19,569 nt of DNA from an uncultured Eubacteriales bacterium. Its GTDB lineage: Bacteria > Bacillota > Clostridia > Christensenellales > Borkfalkiaceae. The position numbers were made by a program, and so were the translations under genes. Shown here in pieces: positions 4,587-6,858 of the stretch. Position 1 is the stretch's first letter. Each line of letters opens with the position of its first letter. The notes under the pieces were generated by a model. It was not told the origin of the DNA, did no database searches, and saw only the letters and a list, made by a program, of their open reading frames with translations. Location: assembly GCA_900549005.1 (NCBI GenBank), contig URMT01000023.1:1-19569 (forward strand), in the 5' to 3' direction.

Positions 4587-5465
4587 TTGTATTCGTTTAA
4601 AGATAAATACGGGGAGTATCTTTCCCTGTTCGAAGATCGTCTTGAAAGGTTTTATGCCGAGCTTAAATGCAGGCCGCAGGTGCTCGACGAAAGCCTGAAA
4701 TACAGTTTGAAGAGCGGCGGTAAGCGCGTGAGGCCCGTTCTTATGCTCGCTGCTGCCGACCTTGTGGGTGCAGACAGAGAAGCCGTTCTCGATTTCGCGC
4801 TTGCGCTTGAACTTATTCACACCTACTCGCTCATTCACGACGATTTGCCCGAAATGGACAACGACGATTTCAGAAGGGGAAAACCTTCCAACCATAAAGT
4901 GTTCGGCACGGGCAATGCCGTGCTTGCAGGCGACGGGCTTCTGAATACCGCCTATTATGTGCTTTTGTGCCGTTGCAGCGACGGAGTGAACTTCTGCGAA
5001 GCAGCCAAATTTATGTGCGACTGCGCAGGGGTCAAGGGTATGATTGCGGGGCAGTCTGCCGACCTTTATTGCGCGGAAAAGGGCATTAAAGACGAAAAAT
5101 ACCTCGATTATATAGTAAAAAACAAGACGGGAAAACTTATTTCCGCAGCCGTTGCCGCACCTGCAATACTTGCAGGCGGCAGGTACTTTTTGGAACTCAG
5201 GCAGTTCGGGGAAGACCTCGGCAGGCTCTTCCAGATAGTGGACGACATACTCGACGAAGAGGGAAGTCTGGAAAAACTCGGCAAAACTTCGGGGAAAGAC
5301 AGGGAAGAGAATAAACTTACCTATGTGACTTTCTACGGCGCGGAAGAGTGCCGCGTGCTTGCCGACGTTATGTGCGACAAGTGCCTCAAAATTCTTGAAG
5401 GCGTGCAGGGAGATACGCAGTTTCTGCGCGACGTGGTTTCGTTTGTGCGCTATCGTGAGGGTTAA
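4587..5465 (+). CDS. ispA: Geranyl/farnesyl diphosphate synthase (polyprenyl synthetase family)
   Basis: Short-chain prenyl transferase condensing DMAPP and IPP into GPP/FPP for undecaprenyl-phosphate and other isoprenoids. The product has 292 residues, typical. Motifs: GGKRVRP (residues 44-50), first aspartate-rich motif DDLPEMD (85-91) followed by RRGKPSNH, GQSADL, and the second aspartate-rich motif QIVDDILDEEG (about 216-226) followed by GKTSGKD. The start is a TTG at 4587; GAGGAG (4571-4576), lying inside the end of folD, is correctly spaced for it. Immediately downstream come the promoter and the structured RNA interpreted as OLE. This ispA/OLE adjacency is itself part of the evidence for OLE. 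Confidence 0.95.
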   Translation: MYSFKDKYGEYLSLFEDRLERFYAELKCRPQVLDESLKYSLKSGGKRVRPVLMLAAADLVGADREAVLDFALALELIHTYSLIHDDLPEMDNDDFRRGKPSNHKVFGTGNAVLAGDGLLNTAYYVLLCRCSDGVNFCEAAKFMCDCAGVKGMIAGQSADLYCAEKGIKDEKYLDYIVKNKTGKLISAAVAAPAILAGGRYFLELRQFGEDLGRLFQIVDDILDEEGSLEKLGKTSGKDREENKLTYVTFYGAEECRVLADVMCDKCLKILEGVQGDTQFLRDVVSFVRYREG

Positions 5466-5475
5466 AAAATTTTAT

Positions 5476-5504
5476 TTGACATTTTTTTCGCTGTATGATA
5501 ATAT
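5476..5504 (+). promoter_or_regulatory. Strong extended -10 promoter of the OLE RNA
   Basis: A consensus TTGACA (5476-5481), a 17-base spacer and TAATAT (5499-5504) preceded by TG one base upstream (5496-5497), i.e. an extended -10. The spacer is T-rich at its start. The expected transcription start is near 5511, just before the 5' arm of the stem that closes the RNA (5514-5526). It is the best sigma-A promoter in the window and points at the non-coding region, not at a protein gene. Confidence 0.9.
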
Positions 5505-5510
5505 AGTAAT

Positions 5511-6109
5511 AGTAATATTCAGTGGCGCAGTATTCTAGTCAGATGTTGCAGGTGCGAAGGCGGGGTTAAAAGACCGTCGCAGGGCATATCTATGAAGTTT
5601 CTGGTATCTGCTTGCTTTGCCCAAAAGCGGGTGGGTGCTGGGAGTAAAGGTTTATGGGAACTGCATAACGGCATATGACAGCCAACCCATTTACCGCGGA
5701 GGCCGCAATATTTTTTTGCGGATAAACCTGCTGCCTGGCGCAAGCTGGGCACAGAGTAGCCTGCTTTGAGTGAGTTCAGCGGATAACAGAACAAAGTTTT
5801 TGCGGCGCGGCCACGCCAAGAAAGCTATCGCTGTTTGAAATTGTACTTGCAAAAGAAGATAAACCCTGCATTATCTGTCAAGGAAAGCTTCTAGACTGTC
5901 AACGTATTAGAGATTACGGTGTGGACTCAGTGGCGATTCGGTTGCGCATAAGGAGACTGTGCGCCCGCACTCTTTAAAGGAAACTGCTTCTTCGGCGACG
6001 GGAAGTGAGCGCGGGGGAAATCCTACCGAACCTAAGCCGCAAAGTTTATTTAATATAAGCCACTCTATATTTACCTTTTACGCACACAATTAGTTGTGCG
6101 TATTTTTTT
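5511..6109 (+). ncRNA. ole: OLE RNA (ornate large extremophilic RNA)
   Basis: About 600 nt with no plausible protein gene on either strand. It lies between ispA and an OapA-like membrane protein gene followed by dxs, the site known for OLE RNAs in Firmicutes. Seen: strong promoter ending at 5504; the two ends pair (AATAT 5514-5518 with ATATT 6067-6071, AGTGGC 5521-5526 with GCCACT 6059-6064); stem TGCGA/TCGCA (5553-5557, 5577-5581) continued by CGG/CCG with a 3-nt bulge; TGGGT-GCTG (5632-5640) with CAGC-CA-ACCCA (5679-5689); CCGCAA/TTGCGG (5703-5708, 5716-5721); TTCGGT/ACCGAA (5937-5942, 6025-6030) enclosing two hairpins; terminator 6080-6109. Family knowledge: about 600 nt, bound by OapA and located at the membrane, connected with Mg2+, alcohol and cold responses in a studied Bacillus. 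Length, site and partner gene agree. I could not align it to a covariance model; tmRNA and RNase P were considered and rejected. Confidence 0.9.
6080..6109 (+). terminator. Intrinsic terminator at the 3' end of the OLE RNA
   Basis: Stem ACGCACA (6080-6086) with TGTGCGT (6095-6101), 8-base loop, then seven T (6103-6109). It ends 14 bases before the ATG of oapA. The RNA would thus have a defined 3' end of its own, with oapA and dxs reached only by read-through. Confidence 0.85.
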
Positions 6110-6123
6110 AGCAGAGATTTATT

Positions 6124-6858
6124 ATGGAAGAAAATTCTGGCGGTGCGCCAAGCCCGCAAAAAGAAAACGATATTGTTGCTGACGGCGATAATCTGCCGTC
6201 GGCAGCTTCCGACGCAGGCCACACGCATTGCTCCGAAGGCGGCGGAAGGGGCGCGGTTGCCTCAGAAGGCGAAAAAAAGCGCAAAAACGGCGGCAAGGGC
6301 GATAAAAACCGCAGGGGGAAGAAGAAAAAGAAGGTACCCGTCTGGCTGAGCTGGGGGCTTACGATTCTCGTGCTTTCCTTCTTTTTGAGCGTGCTGTTCA
6401 GCTTTCTCACGGAAATTGCCGTAAACGACAGTCCAGTATACGTTTGCGTAATCGTGCTTGTCGTCCTGCTGATACTCAACGTCGGGTGCGACATTATTGC
6501 AAATGCCGTGCTATCGTGCGACGTCGACGGGTTCAACGCAATGGCTTCGCGCAAGATACGCGGAGCCAGGCGCGCGGTGATGTTCTGTAAGCACGCCGAA
6601 AAGATTGCCAGCATCTTTTCTGACGTTATAGGCGACATCTGCGGCATAATAAGCGGTTCAGCAGGAGCTGTGCTGGCAGGTTATTTTGTGTTCAACGACT
6701 CTGTGGAAGGAATGGTAATCTCTATACTCATAAGCGCGGTGATAGGCGCGCTTACGGTAGGCGGCAAGGCGTTCGGCAAGCCGATATCTTTGAAGTATAA
6801 CAGTAAGATTGCCTTCGGTTTTGCAAAGTTTACCACATTCTTCGTAAGGGAGAAGTGA
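6124..6858 (+). CDS. oapA: OLE-associated membrane protein OapA, with long polybasic N-terminal extension
   Basis: Predicted membrane partner of the OLE RNA, 244 residues. Residues 1-50 are hydrophilic and low complexity (Gly/Ser/Ala/Glu). Residues 51-70 contain 13 Lys/Arg. Four hydrophobic segments follow, at about 73-98, 104-128, 174-190 and 194-213. Between helices 2 and 3 lies the part that resembles the family: NVGCDIIANAV (119-129), FNAMASRKIRGARRAV (137-152), HAEKIASIFSDVIGDICGIISG (157-178, key motif DVIGD 167-171). Known OapA proteins are about 21 kDa with several membrane helices and a DxxxD-type motif, so this one is longer mainly through its N-terminus. The Shine-Dalgarno is weak (GCAGAG). 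Placement directly after the OLE RNA and directly before dxs matches the known arrangement. Its exact molecular function is not known for any member. Confidence 0.88.
   Translation: MEENSGGAPSPQKENDIVADGDNLPSAASDAGHTHCSEGGGRGAVASEGEKKRKNGGKGDKNRRGKKKKKVPVWLSWGLTILVLSFFLSVLFSFLTEIAVNDSPVYVCVIVLVVLLILNVGCDIIANAVLSCDVDGFNAMASRKIRGARRAVMFCKHAEKIASIFSDVIGDICGIISGSAGAVLAGYFVFNDSVEGMVISILISAVIGALTVGGKAFGKPISLKYNSKIAFGFAKFTTFFVREK

Follow-up and report, generated by a model that had tools for sequence, protein, structure and literature searches.

OLE RNAs, which are membrane-bound, are among the largest structured bacterial RNAs for which no biochemical activity is known. The protein partners are not universal, with the OapB gene found in about 60% and the OapC gene in about 45% of OLE species (PMC11332333). 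The P13 loop is the OapB site in H. halodurans, and the A-rich loop of P4 is a dimer contact in the published OLE structures (PMC12286853, PMC12265935). Two kink-turns have been described, an OapC-induced one proposed to form from J4a/5 with J5/6 and P6 (PMC9723947) and a protein-free one of J4a/5 with J6/7 seen by cryo-EM (PMC12286853), and both are discussed in PMC12054373. An anti-Shine-Dalgarno mimic in P6 has been proposed for bS21 binding (PMC12054373), and the genes reported around ole include some of isoprenoid, sporulation, DNA-repair and cell-wall processes (PMC12265935). In addition, variant clades have been described that are largely without OapB (PMC11332333).

The window considered here is the whole stretch of 19,569 nucleotides analysed (contig URMT01000023.1 of assembly GCA_900549005.1, from an uncultured Eubacteriales bacterium). 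Its OLE RNA resembles the full-length H. halodurans type (RF01071; PMC11332333, PMC12265935, PMC9723947) in covering all model positions, in its P1-P13 framework, in adjoining oapA and in being surrounded by genes for the same processes (isoprenoids, sporulation, cell wall); a promoter of its own, as reported for B. halodurans (PMC9723947), likewise has a promoter-like counterpart in the window. Unlike that type, the window RNA has a P7 of one short hairpin, an A at 5646 in J5/6 and no anti-Shine-Dalgarno mimic in P6, and its clade differs further by a sequence-conserved 3' hairpin and in that no L7Ae-family protein was found in the relatives. A reduced P7 and an OapC that was not found are shared with variant 1 (TANB77) and variant 2 (RF39) OLE RNAs (PMC11332333), whereas here neither P8, P9 nor the P13 loop departs from the ordinary size, and the relatives retain an OapB-like gene. 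The Clostridium acetobutylicum OLE RNA, a cryo-EM dimer compared from its published description (PMC12286853), is similar in length (577 nt there, 574 here), in its A-rich L4 and in the kink-turn strands J4a/5 and J6/7. OLE RNA in Clostridia, a reduced P7 and a missing OapC are already in print; what is added here is the conserved 3' hairpin and the comparison of the kink-turns. A search of the literature, mostly outside subscription papers and supplements, found none linking Coproplasma or Christensenellales with OLE RNA, and the published GTDB survey may well list these genomes.

A complete OLE RNA beside oapA

The ispA gene ends at 5465 and the next open reading frame, oapA (6124-6858), begins immediately downstream of the RNA, leaving the protein-free gap of exactly 658 bases described by a sequence-only reading of this DNA. 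That reading placed in the gap an OLE RNA of about 600 nt with many stems, a strong promoter and a terminator, and proposed a search with the Rfam OLE covariance model. When run, RF01071 matched 5506-6079 of the forward strand over its full length (413.1 bits, E 2e-118, model positions 1-616 of 616), far above the gathering score of 50 bits, and 124 of the 141 model base pairs for which the window has both partners are standard, which supports both the family and the many-stemmed RNA. The end point given earlier, 6109, takes in the terminator. Folding energy is low on the forward strand (z = -2.36, 1/100 shuffles as good) and less so on the reverse (z = -1.10, 14/100 shuffles as good). The window therefore holds a complete OLE RNA beside its partner gene, a genuine but expected member of the family (Table 1).

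We put at about 0.93 the probability that the gap carries a working ole gene with its own promoter and full fold, mostly terminated before oapA and giving an OLE-type ribonucleoprotein that is most likely OapC-free in the clade. On this reading ole would be transcribed from a sigma-A-type promoter of its own, the transcript would fold completely, giving both domain 1 (P3-P9) and domain 2 (P1, P2 and the 3' helices) of OLE RNA, and transcription would mostly stop at a dedicated hairpin just ahead of oapA. By analogy with the OLE RNAs studied elsewhere, it may then dimerise, bind both OapA, encoded by the gene that follows, and (at P13) an OapB-like protein, and act as a membrane-bound ribonucleoprotein that serves under stress. 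In the clade the particle would most likely do without OapC, relying on a self-formed kink-turn of J4a/5 with J6/7.

Table 1. Features of the OLE locus, in positions of the window
Feature	Position	Strand	Basis
Promoter-like site of ole, TTGACA-17-TAATAT	5476..5504	+	10/12 matches, TG before second hexamer
OLE RNA, full length	5506..6079	+	RF01071, 413.1 bits, model 1-616
P1, 5' strand	5521..5526	+	pairs with 6059-6064; covariation
P3/P3.1, 5' strand	5541..5555	+	pairs with about 5863-5875; covariation 5542-5875 to 5554-5863
P4 hairpin, A-rich loop	5559..5578	+	RF01071 match and alignment
J4a/5, kink-turn strand AUGAAGU	5592..5598	+	identical in 19/19 clade OLE RNAs
P5 hairpin	5598..5644	+	20/20 window pairs standard
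J5/6 region GAGUAAAGG	5642..5650	+	A5646 diagnostic of clade
P6 hairpin	5649..5695	+	alignment; without CCUCC anti-Shine-Dalgarno mimic
J6/7, second kink-turn strand CGCGGAG	5695..5701	+	CG[CU]GGAG in 18/19 clade
Reduced P7, single short hairpin, U-rich loop	5702..5722	+	length measurements
P8 hairpin	5727..5754	+	9/13 window pairs standard
P9 arm, GGCC in end loop	5763..5859	+	alignment, length count
P3/P3.1, 3' strand	5863..5875	+	covariation
3' domain (domain 2) helices, including P13 loop	5903..6057	+	alignment
P1, 3' strand	6059..6064	+	covariation
Clade-conserved 3' stem-loop UACGCAC-loop-GUGCGUA with U tract, terminator-like	6079..6109	+	motif searches
oapA, 244-aa membrane protein, basic N-terminal tail and CNNM-like region	6124..6858	+	open reading frame, profile, fold

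Relatives and alignment

Judged by the OapA protein, the closest named genomes belong to Candidatus Coproplasma species (gut MAGs) and uncultured gut Clostridia, in agreement with the clostridial host suggested earlier from the gene set; a 96% identical OapA is labelled Oscillospiraceae bacterium by its source. GTDB places the organism in Christensenellales. In a tree of 128 OapA proteins the window groups with genomes G001, G004, G006 and G009 (support 99/93; genome and locus labels are our own), a subgroup nested in a group of 18 OapA rows (support 100/100). The clade referred to below consists of 19 OLE RNAs, namely those of this group and that of G297, added by its OLE sequence, its oapA being truncated at the end of a contig. 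The corresponding genome set numbers 24 and includes six genomes (G002, G003, G005, G007, G008 and G015) by OapA similarity alone.

OLE matches were obtained in 18/20 relatives and in 135/297 genomes drawn from the order. The two relatives without a match, G003 and G015, each have a contig that stops at most about 260 bases upstream of the 3' hairpin. The alignment comprises 144 OLE RNAs: the window, 14 relatives, after removal of four partial matches (G002, G005, G007, G008) and the two genomes without a match, and 129 others, after removal of G009, already counted, and of five partial matches (G215, G191, G054, G039, G133). G207, which contains a run of N, was excluded from the counts of conserved strands and loops, from the J5/6 counts and from one of the two covariation analyses, which used 143 RNAs in place of 144, and was kept in the list of clade-change sites. 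The helix-length comparison was made without G207, G050 and G245. A separate measurement of P7 and P4a gave no value for 8 RNAs at P7 and for 1 at P4a, and loci with too little flank were excluded from the promoter, terminator and U-rich counts.

Helices and covariation

Helix names are a mapping onto PMC12286853 and PMC12265935. Covariation adds several helices that are open in the Rfam structure line, namely P1 (5520-5526 with 6059-6065), P2 (5534-5895), P3/P3.1 (5542-5554 with 5863-5875) and the pair 5583-5761, so that P1, P2 and P3 all covary within a conserved secondary structure. P1 is fully paired in the window and covaries across the 143-144 aligned OLE RNAs (G-C/A-U/C-G, U-A/A-U, U-A/C-G), and its first pair is changed on both sides in the clade, from G-C to A-U. 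The 5' strand of P3/P3.1 is 15 nt long in 123/141 OLE RNAs. Loops L4, L5 and L6 and the GGCC of the P9 end loop are recognisable in the window; on the other hand, L5 lacks one C in 9/19 clade RNAs and is changed in 3/19, with the window unaffected.

Several local features were seen in addition. The pair 5978-5985, unpaired in the Rfam structure line and seen in both window and relatives, is among the strongest covarying pairs (A-U/G-C/C-G, 140/143) and closes an AG-GAAA-CU mini-hairpin in the 3' domain. The clade as a whole is changed at 5917-5918 and 6043 (U to C, A to G and G to A). These positions face each other beside the helix 5920-5924/6037-6041 and may form a covarying non-canonical A-G pair, in the part of the RNA that is unresolved by cryo-EM. 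In 5/5 Coproplasma OLE RNAs the P4a region (5585-5594) has CAUA-(1-2 nt)-UAUG in place of the AUCGAU palindrome.

Reduction of P7

In the clade P7 is a plain hairpin of 17-32 nt; its median length in the other groups is 43 and 45 nt. The GGU..UACU motif of P7, present in 86/103 and 11/14 RNAs of those groups, occurs in 0/5 Coproplasma and 2/14 sister RNAs. Only P7 is clearly reduced. P8 is 28 nt in the window (median 31) and the P9 arm 79 nt (median 79), and the RNA is therefore neither the published variant 1, with short P7, P8 and P9, nor variant 2, without P7 and P8. According to PMC12265935 neither P7 nor P8 is a dimer contact, which would explain why P7 can shrink, although PMC12286853 lists L7, to the contrary, among the contacts of one bridge. 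The opposite extreme was found at G050:C13:9146-9976 (locus L213), an OLE RNA of 831 nt in which inserts enlarge P7 by 129 nt, the 3' domain by 66 nt and P9 by 29 nt; the P7 and 3'-domain inserts both fold into long stems.

OapC and the kink-turn

An L7Ae-family protein (PF01248, the family of OapC) was detected in 0/24 clade genomes, which are MAGs of unknown completeness and do not include the window's own genome, and in 108/125 other OLE genomes, at E up to 0.001. Loss of the gene is one reading of this difference. The other, that an OapC is present and too diverged for PF01248 or that another kink-turn protein substitutes for it, is rather unlikely: small proteins that have diverged may escape a first-look search, and matches are only weak in several other OLE genomes of the order (5 of the 108 stay under the cut-off), but the same search that gave the contrast between clade and order was positive for the B. 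subtilis control.

An OapC-free particle would also fit the junctions. Position 5646 in J5/6 is A in 19/19 clade RNAs and U in 118/125 others, while the two strands of the protein-free kink-turn are kept (Table 1). Preserved J4a/5 and J6/7 strands together with a changed J5/6 are consistent with survival of the protein-free kink-turn, a pattern that is suggestive only, because the change in J5/6 is one evolutionary event in the clade. Moreover, loss of OapC is not generally accompanied by this change: of 17 other OLE RNAs whose genomes yielded no L7Ae protein, 15 keep the usual GUUAAG, and the clade-like GUAAAG is found in 4/107 OLE RNAs from L7Ae-bearing genomes. The clade can be regarded as a natural test of the two published kink-turns, which exclude each other: the J6/7 partner is kept, the J5/6 partner is changed and no L7Ae protein was detected, albeit in a single event that is not repeated in most other L7Ae-less genomes. 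The fuller proposal, in which the clade particle is OapC-free with a protein-independent J4a/5-J6/7 kink-turn and the OapC-induced alternative lost, and in which the 3' hairpin is a regulated terminator setting the OLE:OapA ratio, is unlikely as a whole, and was marked down slightly because of those 15/17 RNAs.

OapA, OapB and bS21

OapA is CNNM-like by profile in relatives and by fold with a middling Z, and is a possible member of the CNNM transmembrane domain family (PF01595). An OapA-like open reading frame lies downstream in 128/144 aligned loci; of the 16 in which none was found, 5 have fewer than 300 bases available and 11 have 1000 bases, in which a long reading frame may not have closed. 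OapB-like reading frames, recognised by eye, are present between map and infA in 18/18 infA loci of relatives (MAGs). Seven of them, when aligned, share 37 invariant columns, and the one protein tested matches the solved OapB structure 7k9b (E 2e-8). The presumed binding site is conserved as well, since the P13 loop CGGCGACGG at 5993-6001 is identical in 16/19 clade RNAs and has one change in the other 3. The gene for bS21 was found in 20/20 relatives. The CCUCC of the anti-Shine-Dalgarno mimic in P6 occurs in 7/144 aligned OLE RNAs and is absent from the window; the mimic proposed for bS21 binding is thus rare in this order.

Promoter-like site, 3' hairpin and probable read-through into oapA

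The predicted promoter is the only promoter-like site in a scan of 5400-6200, where 1.0 is expected by chance, and its place and conservation therefore weigh more than its count. In 19/19 clade loci (shuffles 17-27%) a site with at least 9/12 matches has its end 17-20 nt upstream of the GG of P1, and promoter-like sites precede OLE in 85/121 other loci; over both sets the shuffles give 14-27%. The promoter claimed earlier thus has a candidate that is kept throughout the clade.

The claimed terminator also has its counterpart, a terminator-like hairpin at 6079-6102 followed by a T tract, 21 nt ahead of oapA; the same scan gave two other terminator-like sites, with 0.9 expected in all. Such a hairpin follows OLE in 19/19 clade loci (shuffles 1%) versus 17/122 others (14/105 and 3/17), and over both sets in 1-3% of shuffles. 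The motif with its T tract occurs 22 times in 425 kb (the window and 29 relative loci), always directly after OLE, and a looser pattern is present in 28/28 loci with a complete OLE-oapA interval (27 and L016); L007 and L025 start inside oapA and are outside this count. The loops are 4-10 nt long with 24 distinct sequences, whereas the stem pairs vary solely by G-U wobble and one C-A. Across the 24 clade genomes the exact pattern gave 29 matches, versus 3 for the reversed control pattern: 16 lie beside an OLE match, 3 near contig ends (G003, G005, G015) and 10 elsewhere at 8 sites. In 46 other OLE genomes there were 13 exact matches, none on an OLE contig. The use of 'terminator' in PMC10898510 refers to the ykoY riboswitch.

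From the end of the stem to the next ATG there are 13-26 nt in 28/28 loci (in the window this ATG is the oapA start), which leaves little room for another promoter, and oapA is therefore probably expressed by read-through. The clade-specific conserved tail hairpin in this way ties ole to oapA, and it may set the OLE:OapA ratio. A U-rich stretch lies within 16 nt of P1 in 73/124 other OLE loci (background about 8%), and OLE folding itself could gate oapA through this stretch near the closing helix elsewhere in the order. The stretch is also present after P1, ahead of the hairpin, in 17/19 clade loci (background 12%); the hairpin is therefore an addition and not a replacement, and it may not be the sole end point.

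The close spacing of hairpin and ATG, with the sole promoter-like site of the scanned region upstream of OLE, might also mean that the RNA is mainly a 5' leader, an attenuator controlling oapA, and not a free-standing RNA. This is improbable, given that OLE occurs as an abundant RNA of its own where it has been studied (PMC9723947, PMC12265935). Furthermore, control of oapA and a free OLE RNA are mutually compatible.

Integrity of the locus

A decaying copy that has lost its function would account for the reduced P7, for a score of 413 bits below the best of the order (531 bits) and for the L7Ae-family protein not detected in the clade. It is nevertheless highly improbable, as the conserved loops and most helices are intact, the P7 reduction is common to all 19 clade RNAs, the promoter-like and terminator-like sites are kept in 19/19 clade loci, P1 carries its two-sided change and oapA is open downstream. 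Another large RNA (tmRNA, RNase P RNA or a group II intron), which length and structure alone might suggest, can be dismissed, as the full-length OLE match is the only one at a gathering score in the whole window. A working ole gene accordingly remains the preferred reading.

Neighbouring genes and further observations

Upstream of OLE lie spoIIIAE, an Asp23/YqhY-type gene, folD and ispA (polyprenyl synthetase), and downstream, after the membrane protein, dxs, a tlyA-like gene, argR, a spoIVB-type peptidase, a D-Ala-D-Ala carboxypeptidase-like gene, lysA, a scpA-like gene and scpB. The tlyA, spoIVB and scpA matches are all under the NCBIfam cut-offs, those of tlyA and spoIVB by less than 1 bit, and nadK and recN are putative, read from open reading frames alone. 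A 180-aa reading frame at 13709-14251 matches no Pfam family at E 0.001.

In nine cases (G002, G005, G007, G008, G039, G054, G133, G191 and G277:C22) only part of the OLE RNA is matched, mostly close to the end of a contig, which might mean that the conserved RNA breaks short-read assembly. Two genomes, G215 and G277, each have two OLE matches on different contigs, reflecting either mixed strains or a second copy.
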